Source: Bacillota bacterium (GTDB taxonomy: Bacteria; Bacillota; Clostridia; Christensenellales; Pumilibacteraceae). Taken from it: a stretch of 33,827 bases of DNA. Location of the stretch: the NCBI GenBank assembly GCA_009781235.1, contig WQYM01000005.1:1-33827 (forward strand), given 5' to 3'. This document shows positions 3,639-33,243 of the stretch, piece after piece. The position numbers were made by a program, and so were the translations under genes. The first letter of the stretch is position 1. Each line of letters starts with the position of its first letter. Under the pieces are notes generated by a model that had not been told where the DNA came from, did not search any database, and saw only the letters and a list, made by a program, of their open reading frames with translations.

Positions 3639-3682
3639 AATCAATCCTTTTTTATCGCCTAGTGCAGTAGTGCAGTAGTGCA

Positions 3683-4828
3683 TTATTCCAGGTCTCCCAG
3701 GTCTTCCTCGAACAAATCGAGGTCGATATCCTCGTCGGCGGCATGGGGATCCGTGGGCGCGGCAGTCGATTCCGCTTCCTCCGTCTCGTCGGCGCGCAGG
3801 GATGAGTACGGCTTTACGTCGATTTTCCAGCCGGTCAATTTGGCGGCGAGGCGCGCGTTTTGCCCGTCCTTGCCGATGGCCAAACTCAGCATATCGTCCA
3901 TAACTACGGCCTTGGCGCAGCGTTCGTCGTCGTTTGCCTGCACCATGATGACCTTAGCGGGACTAAGGGCGCGCGCGATAAACTCTAAGATGTCGTCGCA
4001 CCACGGGATGATGTCGATTTTTTCGCCTTCCAACTCCGAAACGACCGCGTTGACGCGCATACCGCGGTTGCCGACGCACGCGCCTACGGCATCGATTTCC
4101 GGGTCAACGGAGTAAACGGCCATTTTTGTGCGATACCCCGCCTCGCGTACGATGGATTTGATTGTGATGATGCCGCCGTTAATTTCCGGCACTTCCATCT
4201 CGAATAAACGCTTGACAAATCCGGAAACGGTGCGCGAAACGATGATTTGCGGACCCTTTTGACCCGCCTTAATCTTTTTGACGTACACCTTGATGCGGTC
4301 GCCCACGTTAAAGCGGTCATTGGGCATCTGGTCTTGCGGGTTTAGCACCGCCTCAAGCTTGTTGATTTCGACGTACACGTTCTTGTTGTCGATGCGGCGC
4401 ACGACGCACGAAACCAGTTCGTCCTCTTTTTGGGACAGTTCGCTGTACGCCATTTCGCCCTCGACCTCGCGCAGCTTTTGCATGATGACCTGCTTGGCGG
4501 TTTGGGCGGCGATGCGACCGAAATCCTTAGACGAAATTTCTTCCTGTACGCGGTCGCCCACCTTGTACTTTTTGCTGACAAGCCGGGCGTCCTCGAGGCT
4601 GATTTCTTTTTCTTTGTCCTCGACCTCTTCGACGACGTTTTGGAACGCGTAAACCTTAATCGTGTTGCGGTCGGGCAAAAGCCTAACCTCGACGGCCTTG
4701 GGGGTTCCGGTGTGCTTTTTGTACGCGATGACGAGCGCCGTTTCAAGCGCCTCTAAAAACACATCTTTTTTGATGCGCTTCTCGGCTTCTAAATCGTCCA
4801 GCGCCTGAAAAAAATCCTTGTTGATCAT
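3683..4828 (-). CDS. nusA: Transcription termination/antitermination factor NusA
   Basis: MINKDFFQALDDLEAEKRIKKDVFLEALE start, S1/KH region (GNRGMRVNAVVSELEGEKIDIIPW); start trimmed from 4942. Confidence 0.97.
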   Translation of the reverse strand: MINKDFFQALDDLEAEKRIKKDVFLEALETALVIAYKKHTGTPKAVEVRLLPDRNTIKVYAFQNVVEEVEDKEKEISLEDARLVSKKYKVGDRVQEEISSKDFGRIAAQTAKQVIMQKLREVEGEMAYSELSQKEDELVSCVVRRIDNKNVYVEINKLEAVLNPQDQMPNDRFNVGDRIKVYVKKIKAGQKGPQIIVSRTVSGFVKRLFEMEVPEINGGIITIKSIVREAGYRTKMAVYSVDPEIDAVGACVGNRGMRVNAVVSELEGEKIDIIPWCDDILEFIARALSPAKVIMVQANDDERCAKAVVMDDMLSLAIGKDGQNARLAAKLTGWKIDVKPYSSLRADETEEAESTAAPTDPHAADEDIDLDLFEEDLGDLE

Positions 4829-4972
4829 GAGCGTGCGGTTTCCTTGTGTAACATTTTTTGTATCTCCGGTTTTATTCAAATTATAAATGATAAATGATAA
4901 ATGATAAATTTTGGACATGATGGAAAGTGTAAAAAAATCCACAATTTATCATTTATCATTTATAATTTATCA

Positions 4973-5440
4973 TTATTCAAAGCTAACGTACGGCCGAACG
5001 TAGACGACCTTACTATCTTCAAACTGTATTCGCTCGTCGACTGCCTTTACGGTTACGGCAACGGTAACGGTGTGCTCCGCTTTTTCGATCAAAACGCCCT
5101 CGTACACTTTCTTGCCGCGATACGGGTCATAAAGCTTTACTTCTACCTTTTTGCCGTAGTTGCGCTCAAAATCGCGCAGGGTTTTAAAGGGCCGATCCAG
5201 GCCGGGGGACGAAACATTTAAGGTGTACGGCGCGCCCTTGGAGGGGTCTAATTCATCCAACACCGGGTCGATGGCGCGGTGTACCCGCTCGCAGTCGTCT
5301 AAAGTAATCCCGGCCTCGTTTGCAATAAAAAACGTCAAATGCGTATCGCCGCGTTTAACTTCGCATTCGACATCAAGGAGCTCGCAGCCCATGCTTTCGA
5401 CCACGGGCGCTATATGGGATTTGATGAGGGTGATATCCAT
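4973..5440 (-). CDS. rimP: Ribosome maturation factor RimP
   Basis: GCELLDVECEVKRG, LNVSSPGLDRPFKTLRDFERNYGKKVEVKL; upstream of nusA. Confidence 0.96.
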   Translation of the reverse strand: MDITLIKSHIAPVVESMGCELLDVECEVKRGDTHLTFFIANEAGITLDDCERVHRAIDPVLDELDPSKGAPYTLNVSSPGLDRPFKTLRDFERNYGKKVEVKLYDPYRGKKVYEGVLIEKAEHTVTVAVTVKAVDERIQFEDSKVVYVRPYVSFE

Positions 5441-6720: not shown

Positions 6721-7090
6721 GGTCTTTCGCGACAATCCAAACCTCGTTCACCGTGCCCCACGAGGCTTGGGCGGGGTAAGCGGTCGAGGAGGCGGGAACC
6801 GTAATTGTGCCTGTAAAACAGCTGCCGGGACTCGTAGTCGTAAAATGCCCGGAAACAATGTCCGCCGAACCGGCAATCGCTACGAACACTCCGTAATAAT
6901 CGCCCGAAAGAATGGTCAACGTGCCGCTGCTGACTCCTACCGCAACGCCGCTGGGGCCGGACGCGGAAACCGTCAAGCCGTCCAACGTTACGTCTCCGCC
7001 GAGCACGCCGATAGCGGACGTATGCAAGGTATTAATCACGGCGCCGTTTTTAAGCGTGACGTAGTACTTGACGTGCCACGGGGACGTAGT
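6704..7090 (-). pseudogene. Fragment of a secreted/surface beta-repeat protein lacking a normal N-terminus
   Basis: NGAVINTLHTSAIGVLGGDVTLDGLTVSASGPSGVAVGVSSGTLTILSGDYYGV; no signal peptide; 5' end runs into tandem repeats at 7072-7180. Confidence 0.5.
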
Positions 7091-7180
7091 GCCACGGGGA
7101 CGTAGTGCCACGGGGACGTAGTACTTGACAGGTCACGGGGGCGTGAGTTTGACCATGTCACGGGGGCGTGAGTTTGACCA
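7072..7180. repeat. Tandem arrays: ~3x 16 nt (GTGCCACGGGGACGTA) then ~2x 25 nt (TGTCACGGGGGCGTGAGTTTGACCA)
   Basis: Direct reading of the sequence. Confidence 0.9.
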
Positions 7181-7190
7181 CACCCACCCC

Positions 7191-7380
7191 CGTAGGGGTC
7201 GCAGTCCTCTGCGACCCGCTGCCGTTGTGCGGGCGAAAAAGCCGTGCCGGGGGGAGGTGTCGGGGGGACGGGGGTGTCGATTTCGGAAAGCAAGTTTCCG
7301 AAACCCCTTCGGGGCACTTCGCGCTGTGCGCTCGTGTCACCACGCCTCGGGCCGCCGTTCGGCGGCCCTCCGTCCCCGAG
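7191..7380 (+). repeat. Composite element copy 1: GTAGGGG palindrome plus multi-hairpin core (intergenic)
   Basis: GTAGGGGTCGCAGTCCTCTGCGACCC ... GTCGGGGGGACGGGGGTGTCGATTTCGGAAAGCAAGTTTCCGAA ... CCGTCCCCGAG. Confidence 0.9.
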
Positions 7381-7466
7381 CCGCCCAAACAAATTGCGCC
7401 CACAACAACAATTCAACGAGGCGGACAGCATTGGAAAGAAGTCGCTTACCGGGGTTGCCGATTCCC

Positions 7467-7592
7467 CGTAGGGGTCGATGCCCTCATCGACCCGCCGGAT
7501 TCCGATTCCCCCGTAGGGGTCGATCTACAGATCGACCCGCCGGAACAGTCATTTTTAATAAGGTGCGGGACGATGAGGGCATCGTCCCCTAC
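7467..7592. repeat. Three GTAGGGG-N-CGACCC palindromes (two direct, one inverted)
   Basis: CGTAGGGGTCGATGCCCTCATCGACCC, CGTAGGGGTCGATCTACAGATCGACCC, GACGATGAGGGCATCGTCCCCTAC. Confidence 0.9.
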
Positions 7593-11342: not shown

Positions 11343-11400
11343 ATTGTCAGGGGGACGGTGGTGTTGACAATATTGTCACTACCACCGTCCCCCTGACAAT
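11343..11400. repeat. REP-like palindrome flanking the RAYT gene (29-bp arms, 2 mismatches)
   Basis: ATTGTCAGGGGGACGGTGGTGTTGACAAT/ATTGTCACTACCACCGTCCCCCTGACAAT. Confidence 0.95.
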
Positions 11401-12152
11401 TATTCTCTAAGCATGTTTCTTAGCTTTTCCCTGCTGACCCCAAGTAACACGGCGATGTCCCTAATGCTTGCGCCGCTTCTGTCTTTCAACTCCTCGACAA
11501 GCTTTCTTACCTGATTGACGTTCATGTTTCTTCCCGGAGTAATCTTGTAATCCTTGTTAAGCTCTAAAAAAACTTTCTCACAGTCTTCGTACTCTTTATC
11601 ATCGTGCTCAAGCCAACTTGTATCGGTTCTCTCCCCCATAATCGCCGTTATATTTTCAGGAGCAATATCATAAAAGATTGCTGCTTCGTCAAAATCGACA
11701 ATTCCCGTCCTTCTTAAATAGTTCGAGTAACTCGAAAACGGATAGTCCTCCGCTTTCTTAACCATTCCGGCTTTCAACGGATTATTCTGTATGTATGCCA
11801 TGCAATAAACCAACTGTCGTTCGCTTCGAATCATCTCACTCTTAAACCTATCTCTAAAAACGTACCCAACTCTGTTATTGATTCTATTGTAGTATCTCGC
11901 ATAATCCGCGTTCACGCGCTTAAAATACAAGGCCAATTCCTGCGCGTCAACAACGCTCAGTAAAATATGCGCGTGGTTTCCCATGACGCAAAACGCAAGT
12001 ATCTTTGCGGGATAATGAATCTTATTCTCTCGCAAGCAAGTCAAATAAAACCCCTTGCAGTGGTCATCGGGAAAAACAAATTCTTTCCCAATCCCCTGCA
12101 CCATCACGTGATAGTATTTTCCGTCTAAATCTTTTCTCGCTATCCTTGGCAT
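11400..12152 (-). CDS. REP-associated tyrosine transposase (Y1_Tnp/IS200-like)
   Basis: MPRIARKDLDGKYYHVMVQG, HUH-type motif FCVMGNHAHILL, YCMAYIQNNPLKAGMV; C-terminal helix-turn-helix-like segment. Confidence 0.92.
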   Translation of the reverse strand: MPRIARKDLDGKYYHVMVQGIGKEFVFPDDHCKGFYLTCLRENKIHYPAKILAFCVMGNHAHILLSVVDAQELALYFKRVNADYARYYNRINNRVGYVFRDRFKSEMIRSERQLVYCMAYIQNNPLKAGMVKKAEDYPFSSYSNYLRRTGIVDFDEAAIFYDIAPENITAIMGERTDTSWLEHDDKEYEDCEKVFLELNKDYKITPGRNMNVNQVRKLVEELKDRSGASIRDIAVLLGVSREKLRNMLRE

Positions 12153-12200
12153 ATCGACATAATATCACAATTTATTCGGTCTGTCAACTATTTTTTGCAA

Positions 12201-12260
12201 TATTGTCAGGGGGACGGTGGTAGTGACAATATTGTCACTACCACCGTCCCCCTGACAATA
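12201..12260. repeat. REP-like perfect palindrome (60 nt)
   Basis: TATTGTCAGGGGGACGGTGGTAGTGACAAT/ATTGTCACTACCACCGTCCCCCTGACAATA, exact inverted repeat. Confidence 0.97.
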
Positions 12261-14694: not shown

Positions 14695-16377
14695 ATGGTG
14701 ACGGCAAAGCTTAGTTTAGACGAAGAGTTTTACGATGCAAAAAATGCGGGGGGGGCGTCTACGGATGCCTCTCCGTCGCCGCGCGCCTCCACGCCCGGCA
14801 CAGCGCCGAGGGGCGACGATACCCCGCCACACCAAGCCGAAAACTCTCCTACCTGCGCAGACGCCCGCCCCGCCCCCGGCTCCGACGCCGGCTCTCCCGC
14901 TCCCGTAAACCCCTTGCGCGACGCGCCCGTCGGCAAGCTTTTAGTAAAATTGAGCCTGCCGGCCGTGATTGCCATGCTGGCTAACGCGATTTACAATATC
15001 GTAGACCGGGCGTTTATCGGCAACGCGCAGTACTTGGGCGAGGGCGGCGCGGCAGCCGCGATGGCGGCGCTGCAGTACTGCTTCCCGCCGATGATGATAA
15101 CTTTTGGCATCGCGCTGATGTTCGGCATCGGAGGCTCAGTCCTCTACTCGATTGCGCTCGGAAAACGCGACCACGAATCGGCCAAGCGCATCATGCACAC
15201 CGCGCTCGGGCTGACCCTCGCCGTTTCCGCCGTCCTTTTTATCTTAACGGTCGGCTTTACGGAATGGGTGATGAAGCCGTTTTTGCCCTCGCCCGGCAAA
15301 GGCGCATCCGCCCAAGACCTTGCGAGCCACCGCGCCGTGACGAATATGGCCGTCACATACTTCCGCATCACCTCGTGCGCCGTGATTTTTCAGGCGATTA
15401 ACGTGTTCGGCAACAATTTTATCCGCGCAAACGGCCACCCCATAACCAGTATGCTGGCAATTATGCTGGCGGCTCTTTTAAACGTCCTATTAGATTTTAT
15501 CTTTATTTTTGTGCTAAAGCTCGGCGTGACCGGGGCGGCGGTTGCGACGGTCATCGCGCAGGGGTGCTCCACCGCATGGATTCTCTATTACTTTTTCGGC
15601 AAAAAGAACGGCAAATTCTTTAAAACCGCGCGCTTTAGGCTCGAAATTAAAAAAATCCGGATTGAGCCCAAGCTCAGCCGGAGGATTATTGCGACGGGCT
15701 TCCCGATGTTTGTGTTTCAGGCGGCCAGCAGCATTTTGACGATTGTGCTGACATTCACCGTGTACCGCTATGTGCCGACGGAGGGCTTGGACGGAGCCGG
15801 CGTCGCGGCCGCGCGGGACGCCGCCGTCGCCTCGATTGCCGTCATCAATTCCATCCTGACGCTGCTTTTGATGCCGCTGACGGGCATAAATCAAGGCATG
15901 AACCCGATACTCGGATACAATTACGGCGCGCAAAACTACGGGCGCGTTAAAAAAACGCTTGCTTTGGGCACGGTTGCTGCAAGCGTCTTTGCCCTGTTGG
16001 TGTGGGGCGCGACCCGGCTGTTCCCGGACGAGGTCATCGGGTTTTTTACGCCCTACCCGGAGCTCGTCGACAAAATAAAGCCGGTGCTGAATGCGTGGCT
16101 ACTGGCAACGTTCCTTTTAGGCATTACGGTCGTGGGGGGCAATTATTTTCAAGGGACGGGCAAGGCGGGGCGCGCGATGCTGCTCTCGCTTTTACGCCAG
16201 GTTTTGATTGTGGTGCCGCTGGTGCTTGTACTGCCGCTGAGCTTGGGGTACGACGGGATTTTTTACGCCCAGCCGATTTCCGACGCCGCGGTTACGGCGG
16301 TAACGGTCATCCTGCTGGAATGGGAGTTTTTGAGGAACCCGAAGTACAGGGGGAAGAAAATAGTGAATAGTGAATAG
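14695..16377 (+). CDS. MATE-family efflux transporter
   Basis: LVKLSLPAVIAMLANAIYNIVDRAFIGN; MPLTGINQGMNPILGYNYGAQNYGRVKK; start at MVTAKLSLDEEF. Confidence 0.92.
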   Translation: MVTAKLSLDEEFYDAKNAGGASTDASPSPRASTPGTAPRGDDTPPHQAENSPTCADARPAPGSDAGSPAPVNPLRDAPVGKLLVKLSLPAVIAMLANAIYNIVDRAFIGNAQYLGEGGAAAAMAALQYCFPPMMITFGIALMFGIGGSVLYSIALGKRDHESAKRIMHTALGLTLAVSAVLFILTVGFTEWVMKPFLPSPGKGASAQDLASHRAVTNMAVTYFRITSCAVIFQAINVFGNNFIRANGHPITSMLAIMLAALLNVLLDFIFIFVLKLGVTGAAVATVIAQGCSTAWILYYFFGKKNGKFFKTARFRLEIKKIRIEPKLSRRIIATGFPMFVFQAASSILTIVLTFTVYRYVPTEGLDGAGVAAARDAAVASIAVINSILTLLLMPLTGINQGMNPILGYNYGAQNYGRVKKTLALGTVAASVFALLVWGATRLFPDEVIGFFTPYPELVDKIKPVLNAWLLATFLLGITVVGGNYFQGTGKAGRAMLLSLLRQVLIVVPLVLVLPLSLGYDGIFYAQPISDAAVTAVTVILLEWEFLRNPKYRGKKIVNSE

Positions 16378-16507
16378 TGAATAGCTGCGGATAAGTGTTT
16401 GTGTGAATAAGGGCAAATTTCTTTTGTTCCTTAGGAAAAAAAAGAACACTCCTACTGTACACAATCGCAATTATCCCTAACTATTCATTATTCACTATTC
16501 ACTATTC
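16358..16507. repeat. Inverted pair of heptad arrays (AATAGTG)n ... (CACTATT)n between convergent genes
   Basis: AATAGTGAATAGTGAATAG on the left, CTATTCATTATTCACTATTCACTATTCG on the right. Confidence 0.9.
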
Positions 16508-17822: not shown

Positions 17823-20800
17823 TTACATTTCAATAAACTCGCCGCCGGAAACGGCGAAAACGCTTTTGCGGGCGACGCGCTTTTTAAGAATCCGTCCGGC
17901 TGCCAAAGCGTAAAGCCCGATTTGCCTACGATAGGAAGCCATGAATTCTTCGGCGAGTTTGCCCGTTTTATAGTCGACAATCTCCACCATACCGTCCGCG
18001 TCCTCTATAAGCAGGTCGATAACGCCTTGCAGCAGTACGCCGTTTTCCATGCAATAGATAAACGGCAGCTCGCGGTAAAATTTCCGCCTACTCACGCGCT
18101 CCGCTATTTTTTCAAGCGCGGTATTGGCGGTGTTTTTTTGCAAAAGCCGCGCAAAATCGGGGTAGTTTTTTGAGAAGCCGTCGAAATTTTCGGGGAACGG
18201 CTTAGAAAAATCGGCGGTTTCTAAGAATTTGTGATAGGCGTCCCCGACATCGGTTCCGTACGCAGGTTCGGGGGGCGGGACTCGGGGCTCGGGGTTCGGG
18301 ATTCGGGGGTCGGGGCTCGGGACTCGGGGCTCGGGATTCGGGATTCGGGGGTCGGGATTCGGGGTTCGGGATATTAACTCGTCTTCTTTTAACTGACCAC
18401 TGAAAACTTCCCACTGACCACTGTCCAGGGGCTCGGGGGTCGGGATGGTTACGTTCATTCCCGTAGGGGTCGATTTACAAATCGACCCGCGGGCTGCACA
18501 CCGTGCAACCCCTACGGCTTGCCGGCTCGCGTCCCCTCCGTCGTTTTCTCGCGTCGCTTCGCTCCCCGCGCCTGTAAAAAACATGCCGCCGGCATATTTT
18601 TGCGGCTTCGCCGCACTCCGCCAGCGCATTTTTCGTTTTTCGTTTTTCGTTTCATTTGTAATTTGTTCCGGGACGCCCGATGGGTCGTTCCCTACGGAAA
18701 ATCCCCCTTCGCGCGCCAGTTGCGTTACCGTCGTCTTTACGGGCAATTGCGGGTGCGGGTACACAAAATCCGTGAACTTTCGGACGCAGGCAACAAAGTT
18801 TTCGCTCCCCTGCTTTTCCGGGGGGAGGTGTCGGGGGGACGGGGGCGTTGATTCAAAAATGCAAGATTTTTGAACCCCTGCGGGGCACTTCGCTACGCTC
18901 GTGTCACCACGCCTCGGGTCGCCGGACGGCGACCCTCCGTCCCCGGGCAGAGCCGCAACCAAGGATTCCTGATTCCCCGTAGGGCGGGGACTTGCTCCCG
19001 CCGTTGGGCTTGCTCCCGCCCCTACGGATTGCCGGCTCGCGTCCCCTCCATCGTTTTTCGTTTTTCGTTTTTCGTTTTTCGTTATATTTACCATCGCCGG
19101 GTACAGCCAGTCAAGCCAGCAGCGCGCGTCTATTCCCTCTTTGGGCTCGTAATCCTTCTTGATGCGGCTAAACAGCGCGAGATGGAATTTAGCACGCGTA
19201 CAAGCGACGTACAAAATCCGCATTTCCTCCTCGCACAGTTTTTTGCGCACCTCCAAGACCGCCCGGCGGTACAGGCTGGTTTTGACGGTTTGCCCGCCAA
19301 AAAGATCAAACCACTTAAGCACCGCGCCGAACTTTACATCCAAAATGCAGTCCCTTTTTACATCGTCGAGGTTGAAATTTTTTGAGAGGTTCGGGAGTAT
19401 TACGAACGGGAACTCGAGCCCCTTGGCGGCGTGCACCGTCATAATCCGCACCGCGTCCGCCTCTCCGCCGCCCGAAAGCTTAACCGCGCCCGCCTCCGCC
19501 GCCAAAAGTGCGGCGGCAAAGTCGCGCCCCGCCGAAAGAGCGGAGAGCCTGTCCAAAAACTTAGACAGCCCGTCCGCGGCGTTATGGGCGTCCGGAAGGC
19601 TGAAGGCATATTTAAAATAGTCGTGCTCGGCGCAAACCTTGCCTGCCAAATCCGCAAAGCTGAGTACCCGGGAAAGGTTTTCATAGCGCGCAAGGTTTGC
19701 AAACAGGGCTTGGAGTTTTTGAGAAAGTTCGGGATTCGGGGGTCGGGGGTCGGGGGTCGGGGCTCGGGGGTCGGAGCTCGGGGGTAAGGTATCAGGGCAC
19801 AAGGCACAAGGCACAGGTAATGGATAACGCATATCACCGATACCTGTGACTTGTGCCCTGATACCTATGCCCTCACTCCCATTCTTTCCGTCTTCTTTCA
19901 ACTGACAACTGACAACTGAAAACTGACAACTGTCTCCGGGATTCGGGACGGTTGCGCACATTCCCGTAGGGGTCGAAAGTCCATCCTGCGACCCGCTGCC
20001 GTTGTACGAGGAAAGTGCCGTGCCGGGGGGAGGGGTTGTCACGGGGACATAGTACTTGACAACCCTAACTTTTCCGGGGGGAGGTGTCGGGGGGACGGGG
20101 ACGTCGATTTCGGAAAGCAAGTTTCCGAAACCCCTTCGGGGCACTTCGCGCTGTGCGCTCGTGTCGCCGTAAACCCGTCCCCGGGCAGAGCCGTAACCAC
20201 CACGTCTCGCGTCGCCGTGCGGCGGCCCTCCGTCCCCGGGCAGAGCCGTGCCTGAGCATTCCCGATTCCCCGTAGGGCGGGGACTTGCCCCCGCCGTAAA
20301 GCACGCCACGTCCCCGGGCAAAGCCGTAACCTCACCATCCGCCCCTACGCCCTGACTCCTAACCAAAAATTCCCTCCGACATTCCTCATTCCTAATTTCT
20401 AATTCCTCACTTTCCTGTCCACTGAAAACTTCCCACTGACCACTGACCCCCGTAGGGGTCGATTTACAAATCGACCCGCCGTCCCCGGGCAGAGCCGTAA
20501 TCAAGGATTCCCAATCCCCCGTAGAGGTCGGGTCGCCGGACGGCGACCCTCCGTCCCCCTGCTGTGCCGTAACCGTACAATATTTTTCACACGCCTCAAA
20601 AAACGGCCAATCGCCGCCATCCGGTTGGGCATCCGCCCACAGGCGAATTTGAGCCAATTCCCCGTCGGAAAAATAGCCGCCCAACGGAGACTTTAACACG
20701 GAGACAAGCGCGATATCGTCGCGGCGGTTGTCGATCAGCCGCAGGTAATTGATCAGCCCCCGGATCGCCGGGTTTTCCGCGCCGTCCGCGCTTTTTTGCA

Positions 20801-23207
20801 TCGTTACGGGAACGCCCGCGCGCCGCAGCTTTTCGCTCAAAACCCCGGCAAACTTCCCCATCGAGCGCAGCAGCACCGCGATGTCGCCGAATTCCGCCGC
20901 CCGTTCCGCGCCGTCCTCGGCGATAAACCGCTTTTTAAGCGACAAAATGTGCGCCGTCACCGCATCGGCCTCGGCAGCTTCGGCGGAGGTGTCCGCATCG
21001 GCATCGGGGAATACGTGGTTTTTTACGCTGTACGGGGCTCGGGGGTCGGGCGTCGGGGTTCGGGGTTCGGGACGAGGGAAATTAGGAATTAGGAATGAGG
21101 AGTGAGGAACGGTGGAGGGATTGGGTGTGTTCATTCCCGTAGGGGGCGATGTCCTCGCTGGCCCGCCGGTTGCCAAGTCCCCCGCCAGCGCTGCAAGGCC
21201 TCTCTGCTCCCCGCCTACCGTTGTGCGGGCGCTCATTGCCGTGCCGGGGGGAGGTGTCAGGGGGACGGGGGTGTTGATGCCGAAAGGCAAGCTTTCGCCC
21301 CCCCTACGGGGCACTTCGCGCTGCGCGCTCGTGTCACCACGCCTCGGGTCGCCGTTCGACGACCCTCCGTCCCCGGGCAGAGCCGCAGCCACGGAGTCCC
21401 TCCGACATTCCTCACTCCTCACTCCTAACTCCTCATTCTTCCGACATTCCTCACTCCTCACTCCTAACTCCTCATTCTTCCGACATTCCTCACTCCTCAC
21501 TCCTAACTCCTCATTTCCCACAAGCCGGCACACCACCGGCTCGACGCCCAGCGCGCCCAAGCCCGTCTCGTTAAAGCAAGCCGTGCCCGCATAATCGACG
21601 CCGCCAAACTCGCGGGTCATCGCATCACTAAACACGCGGTCGCAAAAGCGCAATATCCCGCTGTCGCTGCGAAAATTTGCGTTTAAGCGGATTACGAACT
21701 TTTCGTCCTCATAACCCGCAAATATCCCCGGGTCGGAAAGCCGAAAGCCGTAAATGGACTGCTTGACGTCGCCCACGTAAAACCTTTTTGCCGCAATGCG
21801 GGAAAAAATTGCGTCCTGCAAGGGGTTGACGTCCTGAAACTCGTCCACCATCAGCCACCGGAACCTTGCGCCGATTTCCGCAGCTGCATCGGGGTTGCAC
21901 AAAATGCGGTACGCCGCGCGCTCAATGTCGTTAAAATCGCACCGGCTTTTGCGGCGCTTTTTTGCAGCAAAAATTTTTGCGGCGCTTTTAGCAAGCTCGA
22001 CCAAAAGCGCTGTATGCCCCGCCGCAAGCGCAGGGTCGGCGTACGACAGCGCCTCGTCGCGCTCCGCGCAAAAATCCTTGTACGCGCCCCGCAACTTTTT
22101 ATAGCGCTCGTAAAGCGCGGCCTGCGCATCGGACGCGGGTTTAATGACCGGGAGCCTTTTAAGCTCGCCCGCATCGGCAGCAACCTCGTCGTAAAAAACC
22201 GCGACAGAAGCGGCGCAAGACACAAAGCCTGCGTGCTCGCAAGTCGTTTTTAACTCTGCCGCACGCCGTAAAAACCCCCCAAGCAGGCTTTTATAATTCT
22301 CGGAAAGCGCCGCGATATGCCCGGCATGGCCTTGCGTCGCCGCAGCCGATTTTTCAAACCACGCGTCGGGGTCGGGGTGAATGGCGGAGAATTCGTATAT
22401 CCTTTTTACGATAGCCGCCATCCGTTTGTCGTTTCGGCGCGGCGAAAGGATTTCAAAAAGCTCCAAAAAATCGCCTTGGGTCCGGGGTTCGGAGCTCGGG
22501 GCCCGGGGTTCGGGATTCGGGGTTCGGGATATTAACTCGTCTTCTTTTAACTGTCCACTGTCCACCGTCCACTGTCCACTGTCTTGCGCCGCTTCGGCAA
22601 TCGCCTCGTCTACGGAAAGGTTTAGCAGTGCGTCCGACTCGGCCTCGTCCAACACCTCGAACGCGGGGTCGATGTCGTCGGCATAATAAAAATATTCGCG
22701 CGCGATAGAGGCGCAAAACGCGTCTATCGTGGAAATCTGCGCCGTCGGAAGCTGCCCGATGGCACGGGAAGCCCAAGTGGGGGGGCGGGGGTTGGGGATC
22801 GGGGATCGGGGCTCTGTGGTTGGGTATAAGGTATCAGGGCACAAGGCACAAGGCACAGGTAATTGATTTTGCATATCACCGATACCTGTGCCTTGTGCCT
22901 TGATACCTATGCCTTTTTCGGAAGTCGGGATTCGGGACATAAATCCATCTTCTTTCAATTGTCCACCGCCCACTGTCCACTGTCCACTAAGCTGCTGAAG
23001 CAGCTTAGTGCGCATATCGGCAGCCGCGGCTTTGGTGAACGTGCAGACTACCATGGAAGAAAGCTCCTCCCCTGCCGTCAAAAGCCTGAGGATGCGCTGA
23101 ATCATCACGGTCGTTTTACCGCTGCCGGCAGAGGCGGAAACTAAAATTTCGTCGCAGTCGCTTAAGATGGCCGCACGCTGTGCGGGAGTGAATCGGTCTA
23201 AATCCAT
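17823..23207 (-). CDS. addA: ATP-dependent helicase/nuclease subunit A, expanded to 1794 aa by in-frame repeat inserts
   Basis: ILVSASAGSGKTTVMIQRIL, VDEFQDVNPLQDAIF, FYVGDVKQSIYGFR, LNANFRSD, IMTVHAAKGLEFPFVI, YVACTRAKFHLALF, VEIVDYKTGK. Confidence 0.95.
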   Translation of the reverse strand: MDLDRFTPAQRAAILSDCDEILVSASAGSGKTTVMIQRILRLLTAGEELSSMVVCTFTKAAAADMRTKLLQQLSGQWTVGGGQLKEDGFMSRIPTSEKGIGIKAQGTGIGDMQNQLPVPCALCPDTLYPTTEPRSPIPNPRPPTWASRAIGQLPTAQISTIDAFCASIAREYFYYADDIDPAFEVLDEAESDALLNLSVDEAIAEAAQDSGQWTVDSGQLKEDELISRTPNPEPRAPSSEPRTQGDFLELFEILSPRRNDKRMAAIVKRIYEFSAIHPDPDAWFEKSAAATQGHAGHIAALSENYKSLLGGFLRRAAELKTTCEHAGFVSCAASVAVFYDEVAADAGELKRLPVIKPASDAQAALYERYKKLRGAYKDFCAERDEALSYADPALAAGHTALLVELAKSAAKIFAAKKRRKSRCDFNDIERAAYRILCNPDAAAEIGARFRWLMVDEFQDVNPLQDAIFSRIAAKRFYVGDVKQSIYGFRLSDPGIFAGYEDEKFVIRLNANFRSDSGILRFCDRVFSDAMTREFGGVDYAGTACFNETGLGALGVEPVVCRLVGNEELGVRSEECRKNEELGVRSEECRKNEELGVRSEECRRDSVAAALPGDGGSSNGDPRRGDTSAQREVPRRGGESLPFGINTPVPLTPPPGTAMSARTTVGGEQRGLAALAGDLATGGPARTSPPTGMNTPNPSTVPHSSFLIPNFPRPEPRTPTPDPRAPYSVKNHVFPDADADTSAEAAEADAVTAHILSLKKRFIAEDGAERAAEFGDIAVLLRSMGKFAGVLSEKLRRAGVPVTMQKSADGAENPAIRGLINYLRLIDNRRDDIALVSVLKSPLGGYFSDGELAQIRLWADAQPDGGDWPFFEACEKYCTVTAQQGDGGSPSGDPTSTGDWESLITALPGDGGSICKSTPTGVSGQWEVFSGQESEELEIRNEECRREFLVRSQGVGADGEVTALPGDVACFTAGASPRPTGNRECSGTALPGDGGPPHGDARRGGYGSARGRVYGDTSAQREVPRRGFGNLLSEIDVPVPPTPPPGKVRVVKYYVPVTTPPPGTALSSYNGSGSQDGLSTPTGMCATVPNPGDSCQFSVVSCQLKEDGKNGSEGIGIRAQVTGIGDMRYPLPVPCALCPDTLPPSSDPRAPTPDPRPPNPELSQKLQALFANLARYENLSRVLSFADLAGKVCAEHDYFKYAFSLPDAHNAADGLSKFLDRLSALSAGRDFAAALLAAEAGAVKLSGGGEADAVRIMTVHAAKGLEFPFVILPNLSKNFNLDDVKRDCILDVKFGAVLKWFDLFGGQTVKTSLYRRAVLEVRKKLCEEEMRILYVACTRAKFHLALFSRIKKDYEPKEGIDARCWLDWLYPAMVNITKNEKRKTKNDGGDASRQSVGAGASPTAGASPRPTGNQESLVAALPGDGGSPSGDPRRGDTSVAKCPAGVQKSCIFESTPPSPRHLPPEKQGSENFVACVRKFTDFVYPHPQLPVKTTVTQLAREGGFSVGNDPSGVPEQITNETKNEKRKMRWRSAAKPQKYAGGMFFTGAGSEATRENDGGDASRQAVGVARCAARGSICKSTPTGMNVTIPTPEPLDSGQWEVFSGQLKEDELISRTPNPDPRIPNPEPRVPSPDPRIPNPEPRVPPPEPAYGTDVGDAYHKFLETADFSKPFPENFDGFSKNYPDFARLLQKNTANTALEKIAERVSRRKFYRELPFIYCMENGVLLQGVIDLLIEDADGMVEIVDYKTGKLAEEFMASYRRQIGLYALAAGRILKKRVARKSVFAVSGGEFIEM
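18265..18700. repeat. In-frame composite insert A5b in addA
   Basis: GGGATTCGGGG-type arrays, TCTTCTTTTAACTGACCACTG module, GTAGGGGTCGATTTACAAATCGACCC palindrome (18462-18488); between host segments TVTQLAREGGF and YGTDVGDAYHKFLE. Confidence 0.85.
18820..19085. repeat. In-frame composite insert A5a in addA, contains one multi-hairpin core
   Basis: GTCGGGGGGACGGGGGCGTTGATTCAAAAATGCAAGATTTTTGAA ... CCGTCCCCGGGCAGAGCCG, then TTTTTCG array. Confidence 0.88.
19728..20572. repeat. In-frame composite insert A4 in addA, the largest (~280 codons)
   Basis: Arrays, GGTATCAGGGCACAAGG inverted-repeat module, core copy, GTAGGGGTCGATTTACAAATCGACCC (20451-20477). Confidence 0.88.
21030..21518. repeat. In-frame composite insert A3 in addA with core and 3x39-bp array (21402-21518)
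   Basis: Encodes NEELGVRSEECRK x3 and ALPGDGGSSNGDPRRGDTSAQREVPRRG. Confidence 0.92.
22478..22585. repeat. In-frame insert A2 in addA
   Basis: CGGGGTTCGGGATTCGGGGTTCGGGATATTAACTCGTCTTCTTTTAACTGTCCACTGTCCACC. Confidence 0.85.
22775..22984. repeat. In-frame insert A1 in addA
   Basis: GGGGATCGGGGATCGGGG array, GGTATCAGGGCACAAGGCACAAGGCACAGGTA ... TACCTGTGCCTTGTGCCTTGATACC, then TGTCCAC array. Confidence 0.85.
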
Positions 23208-23209
23208 GA

Positions 23210-26200
23210 TTAGTCCTCTTTAGAAAAAATCTCTTCCCGCCCTACCTTTGCATACTTGCGAACCCTGCCTTCCCCGTCCGCGCCAAAGCCGCACATCGCG
23301 CCAAAGCTACAGTAATCGCACACACCCTCGGCGGGGCTTGGCGCAATGTAACCCCCGCACATCTCCTCTAAAGCCTGCTGCGCCACCCGCACGGCGTATT
23401 CCGTCAGCCCGCCAAGCTCCCCCGTGCCCATGCCATACTCCGACTTTGCCATCGGAATAACGCCGTCCGCACCGGGCTTAACATTGCGCTTCGCCTCGAT
23501 GACCGGGCTCTTATACCCGGGCTCGATCAAGCGGCGGTCTGCGGCCGCCAAAAGCTCCCCGGAGTCATTATACACCCCGCATAGGCTGCGCGGCGGCTCA
23601 CCCGCCTCGATTAGCGGCTTTGAGAGCGGAAAGTAAAACATGCCGGCCCCTTGATAGCCGTTTTCCTCCAGCACCTTGGCGTACAGCGGAAGCTGGAGCG
23701 CGCGCCCGTAGTAGAGCTCTGTAGCCGAAAACTTGGGGAGCTTGCCGGTTTTATAATCGATAACGCGCGCAAACCCCCCAAAGGTATCGACGCGGTCAAT
23801 CTTGCCGCGCAGATAAACCGGGGAGGGGCGGGATTCGGGTCGGGGAGAATTAGGAATTAGGAGTGAGGAGTGAGGAACGGTGGAGAGATTGGGTGTGTTC
23901 ATTCCCGTAGGGGTCGATGTCCTCGCTGGCCCGCCGGTTGCCAAGTCCCCCGTAGGGGGCGCAAGTCCTCTCTGCAGCCCGCTGCCGTTGTGCGGTGGCT
24001 CTTGCCGTGCCGGGGGGAGGTGTCGGGGGGACGGGGACGTTGATTCAAAAAGGCAAGCTTTTTGAACCTCCTGCGGAGGCACTCCGCTGCGCTCCGTGTC
24101 ACCGTACCCGTCCCCGGGCAGAGCCGCAGCCACGGAATCCCTCCGACGTTCCTCACTCCTCACTCCTAACTCCTCATTCTTCCGACATTCCTCACTCCTA
24201 ATTCCTAACTCCTCACTCTTCCGACATTCCTCACTCCTCACTCCTAACTCCTCACTTTCCTGACCCCTAGCCCCTAAAAACGCCACCGTTTTTAGGTCGT
24301 TGCCGCGCGCGTGGCCGAACCGCAGCTCTAGACCCAACGGTTTAAACGCGCCCGCCGTGTACGATTCCGCGATGCGCCCGGCAAGGCGCGCGGCCTCGTC
24401 TACCGCGCGCGCCAAGAGGCGCTTGTTTTTTTCCAGCAGCGCGCCGAATTCTTCTTTAGCAATCGAGCCGGCAATCGCCCTCATGCGGTTTTCGGCGTCC
24501 TTAAAGCCGTCTAAAAAGCAGGCTTCGACAAAACGTTCCGCCGCCCGGTGCAAAAAGCTGCCGATGTCGGTAGGCCTGATTTCGCCCGTGTCGCGCTCTT
24601 TTAGCCGCAGCCCCCCGGCGGCAAAGCACCGGTATGGGCAGGCCAAATATTCCTCGAGCCGCGTGGCCGAAACGGTATTATCGCGAAAATAGAGCAAGGG
24701 AGTCCGGGGCTCGGGGCTCGGGGGTCGGGATTCGGGACGAGGAAAATTAGGAATTAGTAGTGAGGAGTGAGGAATAGCGGAGGGATTGGGCATGTTGTTT
24801 CCCGTAGGGGTCGGAGCCCGGCAGTTCGACCCGCTGCCGTTGTGCGGTAACTCTTGCCTTGCCGGGGGGAGGTGTCGGGGGGACGGGGGTGTTGGTTCAA
24901 AAAGGCAAGCTTTTTGAACCTCCTGCGGAGGCACTTCGCGCTGTGCGCTCGTGTCACCACGCCTCGGGCCGCCGCTTAGCGGCTCTCCGTCCCCGGGCAG
25001 AGCCGTAACCGCAGGACTTCGATTCTCCGCCAACGGCGATGCCCTCATCGCCCCGCCGTCCCCCTGCTGTGACGTAACCAATTTACAAAGCTCCGCCGTC
25101 ATCGGCAAGCCCCTGCCGCCTGCCCGCATGTCCGACAGCGCGCCGAGCAAAAGCTCCGCCGCGTTTGAAAGGGTGGAGATTTCGGCCGCCATTTCATTCA
25201 TTTTGGCCGCGTCGTTATGTTCCACCGCGTTGCGGAACGAAAGCCCGTCCGCTAAGCTCCGCCGCGTTTTTTCGACGGAATTGTGTACGACGCTTTTTGC
25301 GCCGCGCGTAACTGCGGACGCCAAATCCGAAATCCGGCTGTCCCCCGCAAGCGAGTACGCCAAAAAAAGCCGGTCGGCGGACGCTAAAACGCGCACCGCC
25401 TCGCACCGGGCGGCGCGAGCCAGCGCATCCGAATCCGGCCCGGCAGCCTTTCCCGCCGCCGAAAGAACGGCGTTATCCGCGTCGGAAAAAAGCCCCCCGG
25501 CTTCCCGGGCTTCAGGCAGAACGCCCTCGCAAAAATCGACGGCGAACACCTCTTTAAACCTCCCCGCGCGGAACGTTTCCGCGCCGCCCACCACTACCGC
25601 GTCCGCCGTTTCGTTGACGAGCGAAATGCCGGTCGCGCCCACACCCTCGGAGAAGAGGGAGAAGAGGGAATGAGGAGTGAGAAGTGAGGGGTGAGGAACG
25701 GCGGATGGGGAATAGGGGATGGGGGATGGGAATACAAATCCGTCTTCTTTTAACTGATCATTGACCACTGACCCCTGACCACTGACCCCCGCCAGCGCTG
25801 CAAGGCCTCTCTGCAGCCCGCTGCCGTTGTGTGAGAAAACTGCCGTGCCGGGGGGGAGGTGTCGGGGGGACAGGGACGTTGATTCAAAAAGGCAAGCTTT
25901 TTGAACCTCCTGCGGAGACACTTCGCTGCGCTCCGTGTCACCGTACCCGTCCCCGGGCAGAGCCGTAACCTCACCATCCGCCGCTACACCCTGATTCCTA
26001 ACCCAAAAATCCCTCCGACATTCCTCACTCCTCACTCCTAACTCTTCATTCTTCCGACATTCCTCACTCCTAATTCCTAACTCTTCATTCTTCCGACATT
26101 CCTCACTCCTCACTCCTAACTCCTCACTCACCTCCCCCCTAACCCCTGAAAGCTGACCCCTGTCCACTGACTCCTGGCCCCTGAAAACCGAAGTTAAAAA

Positions 26201-27598
26201 CTCCGCGGCCTCCAAGAGCCCGTCGTAAATTTGCCCCAAATCCGCGCCCGCGATTTCCGAGAGTTCCGCCGTTTTCTCTTTTGCACCGCATAAGGTAAAT
26301 ACGCCGCGCAAAAAATCACGGAACGCCTCGCCCGTTTTGGCGGACGCGAAAAGCTTGGCGAATTCGGCCAAGAACCCAACGAGCGAGGCGCGCACATTCT
26401 CGGCGGTTTTGGATTCGGGACTCTGGATTCGGGACTCTGACAAATGTGACAAATGGGGACGGATCCATTTGTCATTTTGACAAATGGATCCGTCCCCATT
26501 TGTCACTGGCCACTGACCACTGTCCCCCGCAAACTCCTCCAAAAACCCCTTGTAATTAACGCCCCGGCTCAATACGTACTCCTCAAAAATATCTGCGGCA
26601 CGCTTGTCGATGCCGGAATAATAGTTTTTTGACAATGCAATCATGTCTTGGCGGCGAAAGCGCCCGGCCGCCGAAACGCAAAGCTCTAAAAACCGGAACA
26701 GCTCGGTATCGCGCAAGTTAAGCTTGCGGTCGATGAAAAACGGGATATCAAATTCGGTTAAAATCCGCTCGATCGGCGCGTAATCGGCGGGGGGCGCCAG
26801 GATGCAAAAATCCCGGAACCGTGCGCCCTCTATCACGCCGCGCCGGATGCGCTTTGCCGTCGCTTTGACGCGGTCAGAAATCTCGGCCGCCTCAAAAAAC
26901 TCCATCTCGCCGAATGCATACGTCAGGCTTTCGACGTCGAAAAAGGTATAGGAGGCGGCTTTATCTTCAAAAATCGCCAAAACGTCGCGCTCTAACGCGG
27001 TAAACCGGTCGAAACCCGCGACATAAAAATGCGTGCACGAGAGGTCGTCGTAGGCAATATCGCGTGCAAGCAGCCGCATCCGCCCGGCCAAATCGACGAA
27101 TTTGTTTTCCGTTTCGGCCAAAAACCGCGTGTAGACGCGTGCGATGTCGGCCAGCTTTAAGCCTGCCGCGCCGCCTTTGCCGACAAAATCGGACGGCGCC
27201 AAGCCCGCGTTTGCCGCGACCGAGATTGTTTCGTACATTTTAGCGGCAAAGCCCGGAAGGCGCGCGCTGCTTTTAAAAACGCGGAAATCCTTTTTTACCT
27301 CGTCTACGATGCCGCGCACCAGCATCACCGCGCCGCCCGCCGATAAAAACCCGGGGTCGCGGCGCACAAATTTTTGAAAAAGCCGGTTAAACGTCAGCAC
27401 CTCGACGTCAAACGCGCCGGTTCCCCTTGTAAACAAAAATCGCTCCATGTAAATGGAGCATTTATCCGGGACGACAACGTAATGTTTCACGGCCAAATCG
27501 ACCGTGCGCGCGCATAAGCAATCGCGCACGGCCAAAAATGACGCGTAAAAGTCAGTAAAGGTTTCGACCCGGATTCCCACACCGTAAGTATACGGCAT
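23210..27598 (-). CDS. addB: ATP-dependent nuclease subunit B, expanded to 1462 aa by in-frame repeat inserts
   Basis: C-terminal nuclease RVIDYKTGKLPKFSATELYYGRALQLPLYAKVLEE; cysteines CPYRC and CDYCSFGAMC; adjacent to addA. Confidence 0.92.
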   Translation of the reverse strand: MPYTYGVGIRVETFTDFYASFLAVRDCLCARTVDLAVKHYVVVPDKCSIYMERFLFTRGTGAFDVEVLTFNRLFQKFVRRDPGFLSAGGAVMLVRGIVDEVKKDFRVFKSSARLPGFAAKMYETISVAANAGLAPSDFVGKGGAAGLKLADIARVYTRFLAETENKFVDLAGRMRLLARDIAYDDLSCTHFYVAGFDRFTALERDVLAIFEDKAASYTFFDVESLTYAFGEMEFFEAAEISDRVKATAKRIRRGVIEGARFRDFCILAPPADYAPIERILTEFDIPFFIDRKLNLRDTELFRFLELCVSAAGRFRRQDMIALSKNYYSGIDKRAADIFEEYVLSRGVNYKGFLEEFAGDSGQWPVTNGDGSICQNDKWIRPHLSHLSESRIQSPESKTAENVRASLVGFLAEFAKLFASAKTGEAFRDFLRGVFTLCGAKEKTAELSEIAGADLGQIYDGLLEAAEFLTSVFRGQESVDRGQLSGVRGEVSEELGVRSEECRKNEELGIRSEECRKNEELGVRSEECRRDFWVRNQGVAADGEVTALPGDGYGDTERSEVSPQEVQKACLFESTSLSPRHLPPGTAVFSHNGSGLQRGLAALAGVSGQGSVVNDQLKEDGFVFPSPIPYSPSAVPHPSLLTPHSLFSLFSEGVGATGISLVNETADAVVVGGAETFRAGRFKEVFAVDFCEGVLPEAREAGGLFSDADNAVLSAAGKAAGPDSDALARAARCEAVRVLASADRLFLAYSLAGDSRISDLASAVTRGAKSVVHNSVEKTRRSLADGLSFRNAVEHNDAAKMNEMAAEISTLSNAAELLLGALSDMRAGGRGLPMTAELCKLVTSQQGDGGAMRASPLAENRSPAVTALPGDGEPLSGGPRRGDTSAQREVPPQEVQKACLFEPTPPSPRHLPPARQELPHNGSGSNCRAPTPTGNNMPNPSAIPHSSLLIPNFPRPESRPPSPEPRTPLLYFRDNTVSATRLEEYLACPYRCFAAGGLRLKERDTGEIRPTDIGSFLHRAAERFVEACFLDGFKDAENRMRAIAGSIAKEEFGALLEKNKRLLARAVDEAARLAGRIAESYTAGAFKPLGLELRFGHARGNDLKTVAFLGARGQESEELGVRSEECRKSEELGIRSEECRKNEELGVRSEERRRDSVAAALPGDGYGDTERSGVPPQEVQKACLFESTSPSPRHLPPARQEPPHNGSGLQRGLAPPTGDLATGGPARTSTPTGMNTPNLSTVPHSSLLIPNSPRPESRPSPVYLRGKIDRVDTFGGFARVIDYKTGKLPKFSATELYYGRALQLPLYAKVLEENGYQGAGMFYFPLSKPLIEAGEPPRSLCGVYNDSGELLAAADRRLIEPGYKSPVIEAKRNVKPGADGVIPMAKSEYGMGTGELGGLTEYAVRVAQQALEEMCGGYIAPSPAEGVCDYCSFGAMCGFGADGEGRVRKYAKVGREEIFSKED
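23825..24290. repeat. In-frame composite insert B4 in addB with core and 3x39-bp array (24143-24259)
   Basis: Encodes SEELGVRSEECRK-type repeats and ALPGDGYGDTERSGVPPQEVQKACLFESTSPSPRHLPP. Confidence 0.92.
24700..25080. repeat. In-frame composite insert B3 in addB with core
   Basis: Encodes ALPGDGEPLSGGPRRGDTSAQREVPPQEVQKACLFEPTPPSPRHLPP. Confidence 0.9.
25655..26190. repeat. In-frame composite insert B2 in addB with core and 3x39-bp array (26015-26131)
   Basis: Encodes NEELGVRSEECRK-type repeats and ALPGDGYGDTERSEVSPQEVQKACLFESTSLSPRHLPP. Confidence 0.92.
26446..26506. repeat. REP-like perfect hairpin inside addB coding sequence (29-bp stem, 3-nt loop)
   Basis: GTGACAAATGGGGACGGATCCATTTGTCA-TTT-TGACAAATGGATCCGTCCCCATTTGTCAC. 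Confidence 0.96.
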
Positions 27599-31467: not shown

Positions 31468-33243
31468 TTACCTCAGCGTCGGGTGTTTTCCGGCGGCGAA
31501 GTCGAGGCCGGTTAAATCCCAAACCGCGGCGTCCCAGCCGAGTTTGTCCGTATAGAACGATACGGAATTAAGGTCTTCCAAGGTACATACCAGGGTTGTG
31601 CTTCCGGAATCCGACGGGTTATGGTATTGGCCGGTGGATTCCCGGTAAAATTCCTGTCCTTCGTAACGGTAGGATTGCGCCCTGTGCCCTATCGCGCAAA
31701 GGCCGGCCATCGCCATCAAGCTGCCGATATTGATATCGGTTACCTCGGTGATATTGCCGGTCGCAAAGCAATTGAAAATCTTGCCCTTCGTTCTAGCCGG
31801 ATAATTGTCCGCATTATAACCGGCTAAGCCCCCCGCAGAATTCACGTATTCAATGGTTATATGGACGGACGCATAACAATTCTGCACCGTAGCCTTTTCT
31901 ATATACCCAACTAAACCGCCCGCAAACATAAATAGACTCATCGCCGGATTCGGATGCTTATTATACAAGTTCACGTTGCCGCCGGCCGCGTAACAATTTT
32001 CTACCAAGCCGTCTTCGGCAACAACTCCTACCAAGCCGCCGGCCATACAAGAAATAGCGGAGGAATTGGTTACGTCGATCATAAAGTTCTCCACACCCAA
32101 ATTTCGGATAACTCCGCGGCTTGCGCCGAATAAACCCACGCAATCATAAAAAACCGTAATGTTAAAATTGCTTACCGTATGGCCGCTCCCATTAAAAATG
32201 CCGGAAAAATACACGGTCTCCTTACCGCTTACAAATGCGCCTATCCCGATCGGCATCCACTCCGCACCCTCTAAATCAATATCCGCCGTCAACATGAAAT
32301 ACGTATCGGCAAAATCCATCCCAAGGTTCACCAATACGGATAACGCCCATAAGTCCTCGGCGTCGGCAATCAAAAAGGGGTATGCCTCCGTGCCCCATCC
32401 GCCTTCTTCCACCTCGTATTCGACCGGAAGCGACCAACCGGAATCGGCGTAGTTTTCTCCGTCGCCAGCCGCCAAAACCTTGATGGGATATATCCCGGGC
32501 GCCATCAATGCCGGTATCACTAAGTCGAACTCGGGCGCATCGGCGGTGCCGATTTCCGTGCCGTCGATGCTCACCTTATAGCCGGAAGCGCCCGAAACCG
32601 CGTCCCACGTAAGCGATGCGTCGTTAATCTGCAGGTTCGACGGCACGGCAAGGCTGACGACGGGGCGAATCACTTTATATTCAAAAACCGCAGACCAATC
32701 GGAATCGACGTAGTCTTCCCCGTCGCCGACCGCTTTTACCTTGATTTGATACGCCTTTGCTTCCGTTAAATCCGATAACGGGTAACTTGTAAGCTGCGCG
32801 GCGTATTCCGCGCCGTCGATGCTCACCTTGTAGCCGTTTGCGCCCGAAACCGCATCCCACGTAAGCAACGCGTCGTTAATCTGCAGGTTCGACGGCACGG
32901 CAAGGCTGACGACGGGGCGAATCACTTTATACTCAAAAACATTAGACCAATCGGAATCGACGTAGTTTTTCCCGTCGCCGACCGCTTTCACCTTGATTTG
33001 GTACGCCTTTGCTTCCGCAAAATCCGATAACGGATAACTTGTAAGCTGCGCGGCGTATTCCGCGCCGTCGATGCTCACCTTATAACCGGAAGCGTTGTCT
33101 ACGGGCGTCCATGAAAGAACCGCGCCGTCCGCTTGAAGGTTTTGAGGCGCGGCCAGCGGCCCGGCTTGGCGGCAAGCGGAAAAACATAACGCGGCAATCA
33201 ATGAAACGATCGTAATGCATACGGCTTTTTGCAAATTTTTCAT
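31468..33243 (-). CDS. Lipoprotein with fibronectin-III-like repeats and a GLUG-motif-like region
   Basis: Lipobox LIAALCFSAC; repeats LQINDALLTWDAVSGANGYKVSIDGAEYAAQLTSYPLSDL; GGLVGYIEKATVQNCYASVHITIEYVNSAGGLAGYN. Confidence 0.85.
   Translation of the reverse strand: MKNLQKAVCITIVSLIAALCFSACRQAGPLAAPQNLQADGAVLSWTPVDNASGYKVSIDGAEYAAQLTSYPLSDFAEAKAYQIKVKAVGDGKNYVDSDWSNVFEYKVIRPVVSLAVPSNLQINDALLTWDAVSGANGYKVSIDGAEYAAQLTSYPLSDLTEAKAYQIKVKAVGDGEDYVDSDWSAVFEYKVIRPVVSLAVPSNLQINDASLTWDAVSGASGYKVSIDGTEIGTADAPEFDLVIPALMAPGIYPIKVLAAGDGENYADSGWSLPVEYEVEEGGWGTEAYPFLIADAEDLWALSVLVNLGMDFADTYFMLTADIDLEGAEWMPIGIGAFVSGKETVYFSGIFNGSGHTVSNFNITVFYDCVGLFGASRGVIRNLGVENFMIDVTNSSAISCMAGGLVGVVAEDGLVENCYAAGGNVNLYNKHPNPAMSLFMFAGGLVGYIEKATVQNCYASVHITIEYVNSAGGLAGYNADNYPARTKGKIFNCFATGNITEVTDINIGSLMAMAGLCAIGHRAQSYRYEGQEFYRESTGQYHNPSDSGSTTLVCTLEDLNSVSFYTDKLGWDAAVWDLTGLDFAAGKHPTLR

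Follow-up and report, generated by a model that had tools for sequence, protein, structure and literature searches.

The subject of this analysis is a set of tandem repeats in the addA and addB genes of a Bacillota bacterium (Clostridia, order Christensenellales, family Pumilibacteraceae), located in a stretch of 33,827 nucleotides (i.e. positions 1 to 33,827 of contig WQYM01000005.1, assembly GCA_009781235.1) that is referred to as the window. These genes hold three arrays, each of three 39-nt units, which are one end of a larger element and not a self-standing feature. We consider it likely that a single hairpin-forming composite, present as homologous copies in addA and addB, has these arrays as its purine arm, and that this composite belongs to a genome-wide population of heptad-based elements that insert both within and between genes and are kept in genes by a filter on the reading frame.

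Arrays of 39-nt units in addA and addB composites

An earlier examination of the window (i.e. the sequence-only reading) had described exactly three 39-nt units at each of three loci; the coordinates were borne out and the arrays are not due to chance. One array is found in the 1,794-aa open reading frame (ORF) of addA (21402-21518) and two in the 1,462-aa ORF of addB (24143-24259 and 26015-26131), all on the minus strand. The addA array consists of the purine arm of a composite named I3 together with a TGTCGGAAG linker, and the two addB arrays are the purine arms of composites J4 and J2, respectively. Each 39-nt unit comprises four heptads and the TGTCGGAAG junction (39 being five heptads plus 4 nt) and spans 13 codons as originally proposed, with the minus (coding) strand reading (G/K/E/V)(N/S)EELG(V/I)RSEE(C/R)R, a peptide that can also be written (K)NEELGVRSEECR. 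Every third heptad of GAGTGAG arrays would give an in-frame TGA, and the 39-nt unit has TTAGGAG at that place. The units of the addA array are identical except for the outermost 3 nt, and those of the addB arrays are internally 91-93% matched (Tandem Repeats Finder). An AATTAGG variant is common to the middle unit of both addB arrays, and in comparisons between arrays units at the same position exhibited 2.1 differences as compared to 3.0 for units at different positions, a modest signal. No other place in the genome contained a tandem 39-bp array with the CCGACATTCC linker, the next matches being partial or differently spaced. A comparison of coding with intergenic copies had been envisaged in the sequence-only reading; all three arrays proved to be coding, and no intergenic 3 x 39 array was found for this comparison.

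The suggestion that a composite had been copied was supported, as each array occupies the corresponding end of one of three homologous composites, which also share the flanking core and a pyrimidine arm. These composites (I3 in addA, 21033-21518; J4 in addB, 23804-24277; J2 in addB, 25634-26191; all minus strand) have a size of 400-500 bp and are homologous well past the arrays, with 83-85% identity across about 350-460 bp. Each contains a purine heptad arm, a core with an inverted GGGGACGG pair and a pyrimidine heptad arm (21033-21108 in I3, 23847-23876 in J4 and about 25667-25697 in J2) complementary to the first. On the coding strand, the purine-rich 3 x 39 array is followed by the core (i.e. 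GGATTCCGTGGCTGCGGCTCTGCCCGGGGACGG...) and, beyond it, by an array of pyrimidine-rich heptads (CTCCTCACTCCTAATTCC) together with CCCGAAC heptads. The same core occurs a fourth time in addB (J3, 24689-25075, minus strand), there without the 39-bp array. Because the arrays share composite flanks, the middle-unit variant and position-wise likeness, we infer that the common copy number of three was probably inherited by common descent and does not represent three independent outcomes. A strong hairpin was predicted for the I3 transcript, with the arms closing the stem (z -4.9), and the DNA fold of the core alone was not unusual (z -0.85). Among 74 genomes of the family, the core was nearly private to the host genome, and a scan of the core peptide against 84,980 species genomes detected no relative. 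A further copy of the core is present beyond the add genes at window positions 7187-7522, adjoining a perfect tandem of three copies of GTGCCACGGGGACGTA (7073-7122), a motif that resembles repetitive extragenic palindromic (REP) sequences.

In-frame inserts of AddA and AddB

Comparison with full-length relatives revealed about nine inserts across the two proteins, none of which breaks the frame or brings in a stop, with about five in addA (17823-23207, minus strand; Pfam UvrD-helicase, UvrD_C and PDDEXK_1; TIGR02785) and about four in addB (23210-27598, minus strand). The inserted residues, whose borders are accurate to a few codons, amount to about 800 in AddA (roughly 45%) and about 500 in AddB (a third). 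The AddA reading frames of relatives are without inserts, at 980-1167 aa in one comparison, and with lengths of 1,068 aa in congener G001 and 871-1167 aa in 16 other genomes of the family, and their AddB proteins of about 1,000 aa are likewise insert-free. The helicase and nuclease motifs of AddA (ASAGSGKT, VDEFQD and VDYKTGK) are intact in sequence, and AddB retains IDYKTGK and the Cys motifs CPYRC and CDYCSFGAMC. Proline is enriched in the inserts of AddA (14% as compared to 3% in the rest of the protein), as are disorder-promoting residues (62% as compared to 51% elsewhere). Apart from the composites, the inserts, all on the minus strand, are I1 (22770-22997; SGQWTVGGGQLKED...PNPRPPT), I2 (22479-22583; AGTGGAC heptads, a 23-nt spacer and CCCGAAC heptads), I4 (19728-20579; nested repeats) and I5 (18276-19083; AAAAACG heptads to CCCGAAC heptads) in addA, and the short J1 (26414-26527) in addB.

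Heptad arrays and reading frame across the genome

A census of heptad arrays was based on 61 stretches (1.02 Mb, about 40% of the genome) that were chosen partly for heptad matches, a form of sampling that bears on array density and not on the frame test. This sample contained 549 heptad arrays of many types, as compared to none in mononucleotide shuffles of the same DNA and a single array in the AddAB regions of relatives (about 143 kb). The pattern (TCCTMAY)3 was present 123 times in the host genome, 11 times in a further genus of the same family and 0 times in two congeners. Arrays inside gene spans numbered 92, whereas about 147 would be expected under an even spread, so that genes are poorer in arrays but by no means free of them.

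The lengths of in-gene inserts were assessed in 267 genes that were placed by homology with no use of the reading frame, the ORFs being taken from congener G001 and a few other relatives. Among 27 inserts of at least 36 nt, 25 were multiples of three in length, all but one of these (24) being stop-free. The 20 array-bearing inserts had such a length in 19 cases and were also stop-free in 18. Array-bearing genes (ten of 33 scanned) included mfd, metG, cysS, purD, dnaX, uvrC and a dipeptidase, of which metG, cysS and dnaX are normally essential. These observations illustrate a tolerance of selfish-looking DNA in bacterial coding sequence, which makes up nearly half of AddA and has counterparts in two tRNA synthetases and DnaX.

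For in-gene arrays, the gene's own frame was open in 92 of 92 cases, distributed over 33 homology-supported genes. None of the 111 stop triplets in these arrays fell in the gene frame, with 55 and 56 falling in the other two frames, and 32 of the 33 genes were in a single frame. Outside genes, no frame was open in 284 of 914 strand readings (about 31%; Fisher p about 2e-14). For AGGA arrays read in the purine orientation, exactly one frame was open in 17/17 arrays within genes, as compared to no open frame in 34/67 outside. In the three composites, the gene frame contained 0 stops and each other frame 7-12, in agreement with the claim that non-gene frames of the arrays expose stops.

Indels between composites whose lengths are not multiples of three cancel out (e.g. 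-1, -2, +1, +1, -1, -1 for I3 as compared to J4), so that the frame in which parts of the core are translated differs from one composite copy to another. In-register substitutions between the three composites were even by codon position (21/22/23). As the indels cancel and the substitutions show no codon-position bias, the frame seems to be constrained and the inserted peptide not; the inserts are therefore read as tolerated and not as domains. Selection for a frame-neutral unit had been offered as a second explanation for the identical copy numbers. This idea holds in the form of a filter on every in-gene heptad insertion (92/92 arrays open and 19/20 lengths divisible by three) and fails as selection for 39 bp or three copies, since other genes contain versions of only two units that are spaced differently (e.g. 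42 nt in contig C93). The inserts provide a natural experiment on residual selection in inserted protein segments, in which frame and absence of stops are kept and the peptide is not.

Purine-first hairpin architecture

Neighbouring arrays were inverted relative to each other in 97 cases, direct in 32 and unrelated in 148, as compared to 3.7% inverted among random pairs. The purine-rich arm came first in 84 inverted pairs and the pyrimidine-rich arm in 2, with a loop of typically about 81 bp. The heptad varied between elements (AATAGTG, AAAAACG, AATTAGG, AGTGATA, AAATGAT and others) and the arms were matched within an element. Two examples in the window lie apart from the composites. One (16359-16507) has an AATAGTG arm, a 97-bp core with GGATAAGTG...TTATCC ends and a complementary arm; the other, which is smaller (4878-4974), has an AAATGAT arm, a 34-bp loop and a complementary arm. 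Small elements in L286 and L287 (contigs C99 and C126) and the element at 16359-16507 are bounded by GGATAAGTG...CACTTATCC and contain a TTCTTTTGTTCC/GGAACAAAAGAA hairpin in their interior. Elements of this kind adjoin heptad arms of several types, and the strict GGATAAGTG...CACTTATCC pattern was detected in no other genome of the family.

Pattern counts for purine-first pairs, with overlapping registers counted, were 21 in genome G000, 16 in G377 and 16 in G401, and the pyrimidine-first order was counted 0 times in each. G377 and G401 represent another family of the same order, in which the purine-first layout is kept and the cores are unrelated. The few elements of these two genomes that were looked at were mostly intergenic in appearance, as judged by eye. 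Their palindromic cores are quite different (L290, L312, L318, L324 and others), and whole-genome matches to the heptad pattern numbered 202 in G377 and 159 in G401. The concerted arms and the purine-first rule, which recur in G377 and G401, are regularities through which the origin of bacterial heptad repeats and the way they are copied become testable.

REP-like cores and a RAYT-like gene

A candidate mobiliser is encoded in the window by a gene for a 250-aa REP-associated tyrosine transposase (RAYT)-like protein of the Y1 type (11400-12152, minus strand; PF01797), which scored 75.7 bits against NCBIfam NF047646, just below the cut-off of 80. Palindromic REP pairs are situated on one side (11346-11397) and the other (12205-12256) of this gene. 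Seven Y1 transposase matches were found in the genome, five of them RAYT-sized and one in the window. Inverted palindromes (GTCAGGGGGACGGTGGT...) are present on both sides of the window gene and of a second copy in contig C44. The palindromes around the RAYT-like gene (11346-12256) include near-perfect ones (TTGTCAGGGGGACGGTGGT...), and a second such unit spans L208:14787-15822 of contig C44.

The core of I3 contains a REP-like inverted GGGGACGG pair (21261-21374), and similar inverted pairs occur at 24027-24115, 24879-24994, 20091-20182 and 18835-18944. Positions 21256-21277 of the I3 core (GTCAGGGGGACGGGGGTGTTGA) differ by one mismatch from an arm of the RAYT-flanking palindrome. Inverted GGGGACGG pairs exhibited a strong preference for one order (58 pairs) over the other (6 pairs), and half of them were at most 250 bp from a heptad array, as compared to 18% of the sample being that near. 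The larger cores thus resemble REPINs that carry heptad arms in addition, and mobility via the resident RAYT/REPIN system is plausible.

Proposed origin and alternative explanations

In the proposed explanation, slippage or unequal exchange would have produced a single triplication of a 39-nt unit (i.e. arm plus linker), after which the whole composite would have been copied inside the add operon. The only survivors in genes would be insertions and later indels that restore a stop-free frame, via purifying selection on the host protein, and the inserted peptide may form a surface loop, rich in proline and probably disordered, that is tolerated and has no function of its own. Dispersal could have occurred either by single-strand transposition of a resident RAYT/REPIN type or by template-switch copying, with RAYT being the better-supported candidate for the GGGGACGG cores.

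Several points weigh against this explanation. Insertion, any target duplication and the route of copying would be indirect readings from one genome, a draft broken into 247 contigs (87% complete), and the enlarged AddA and AddB proteins are predicted from sequence. Two of the 27 inserts were out of frame, the exceptions to frame-keeping including L211:1847-2028 and L196:1106-1218; a third exception is an in-frame 1.8-kb gap with ten stops (L070:6212-8017), which may join two genes. Where an array lies inside one tblastn alignment, its placement in a gene slightly favours an open frame, and inserts lying between separate alignments are free of this bias. With regard to mobility, genome G012 has six Y1 genes and is without the heptad pattern, and G377 and G401 combine the same arm layout with unrelated cores. 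The distribution of Y1 genes among relatives does not follow that of heptads, and the arms are therefore not accounted for by RAYT.

Other origins for the arrays were weighed against the same observations. Two partner proteins have the same peptide in equal copy number and without exception in frame, as might be expected of functional protein repeats, with three NEELGVRSEECRK units being selected in AddA and AddB, for example to join the subunits through binding or a coiled coil. This is very improbable, given that the AddAB proteins of relatives are without arrays, that composite substitutions exhibit no third-position excess (21/22/23), that unrelated genes hold similar arm peptides and that J3 in addB is a core lacking the array. 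The predicted hairpin of the I3 transcript, closed by the arms (z -4.9), together with retention of all AddA motifs, would also be in keeping with inserts that are cut out of the transcript or skipped by the ribosome (i.e. intron-like or hop-like), giving a protein of normal size; open frames are not needed for removal, yet 0/111 stops of in-gene arrays fell in the gene frame, and Rfam gave no match within the window, making such processing highly doubtful.

Heptad arrays of many types are abundant in this genome and the identical addA units suggest recent local expansion, as would follow if the arrays arose in place by replication slippage, in the manner proposed for Borg repeats, and resembled each other only via the genome-wide heptads. 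A non-repeat linker, a core and an opposite arm are however common to the three loci across 350-460 bp, and the position-specific middle-unit variant is shared, so that a purely local origin is very unlikely. There remains the suspicion that addA and addB are decaying pseudogenes that look open, or that the contig was mis-assembled, as the draft is fragmented, repeats are hard to assemble and insert makes up nearly half of AddA. This is extremely improbable in view of about 1,250 inserted codons in two genes with no stop, the intact catalytic motifs and the occurrence of the same pattern in 32/33 genes, including aminoacyl-tRNA synthetases and dnaX. The functional-repeat, splicing and pseudogene readings were rejected on the grounds of array-free relatives, even substitutions, stop-free gene frames and intact motifs.

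Beyond the preferred reading (i.e. copies of one hairpin-forming composite kept in frame), it is nearly as likely as not that a distinct foldback-like class exists in this Clostridia order. Such a class would combine complementary heptad arms in purine-first order, element-specific heptads and unrelated cores, with arms copied from one another by hairpin-templated synthesis, and in one lineage it would have colonised coding genes, including essential ones, with frame as the sole constraint.

Comparison with known repeat systems

Palindromic repeats that lie in frame within bacterial genes have their nearest precedent in the Rickettsia palindromic elements (RPE), for which ten families of about 150 bp and 44 in-gene insertions in R. 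conorii are given (PMC10969869). Both systems place palindromic repeats in frame within unrelated conserved genes, apparently kept in the product (PMC10969869); the RPE-type traits found here are an in-frame repeat in conserved genes, its absence from the orthologues of relatives and a palindromic form (i.e. complementary arms). Unlike RPE, the present elements have arms of tandem heptads that are matched in an element-specific manner, nest up to 850 bp per gene and reside in a Clostridia host.

According to the literature, a RAYT invariably has two inverted REPs at its sides (PMC2817692), and the present genome similarly has RAYT-size Y1 genes between inverted REP palindromes, with the same motif recurring as an inverted pair in composite cores. 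The REPIN trait of a pair of inverted REPs applies to the core only (i.e. the GGGGACGG pairs), the heptad arms being extra. REPs are described as extragenic, whereas these cores are inside addA and addB and carry long heptad arms.

Heptanucleotide repeats of bacteria include cyanobacterial short tandemly repeated repetitive (STRR) sequences, TAACTGA of Beggiatoaceae and GGGAATC of Xanthomonas and Nostoc (PMC4679880, PMC4692102). Tandem 7-nt units dispersed genome-wide and sporadic among lineages are common to these repeats and to the present arrays (PMC4679880, PMC4692102). The known repeats are described as mainly intergenic and under-represented in coding regions; the present arrays, which are fewer in genes than an even spread would give (92 as compared to about 147), occupy at least 33 homology-supported genes and form purine-first inverted pairs.

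Amino acid tandem repeats (aaTR) of Borgs have units that are always divisible by three and products that are often disordered (PMC9879509), and the in-ORF units of 39 nt here and 42 nt in contig C93 are likewise divisible by three. A local, locus-unique origin is thought to apply to aaTR but was not found here, where the composite is common to three loci and the arrays were copied from a single dispersed element, with units mostly of 7 nt. Eukaryotic foldback transposons such as Tetris, which are non-autonomous, likewise have a middle domain between inverted arms that consist of tandem subrepeats (PMC4079207); the elements described here are much smaller, bacterial and not known to be linked to a transposase. 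In the open-licence literature, the combination of in-gene insertion, heptad arms and REPIN-like cores was found in none of these systems.

Other repeats in the window

An identical 23-bp run of TAGTGCAG (2.9 copies, perfect) is present at 153-175 and 3660-3682, in each case just downstream of a minus-strand ORF (176-2914 and 3683-4942, respectively). The first of these ORFs (912 aa) contains a 45-bp repeat of 2.5 copies (2516-2637; 9-bp based, 97% matched) whose period is divisible by three. A 252-bp tandem duplication (32554-33094; 91% matched) is located in a minus-strand ORF at 31468-33243 and may be a repeated protein domain.

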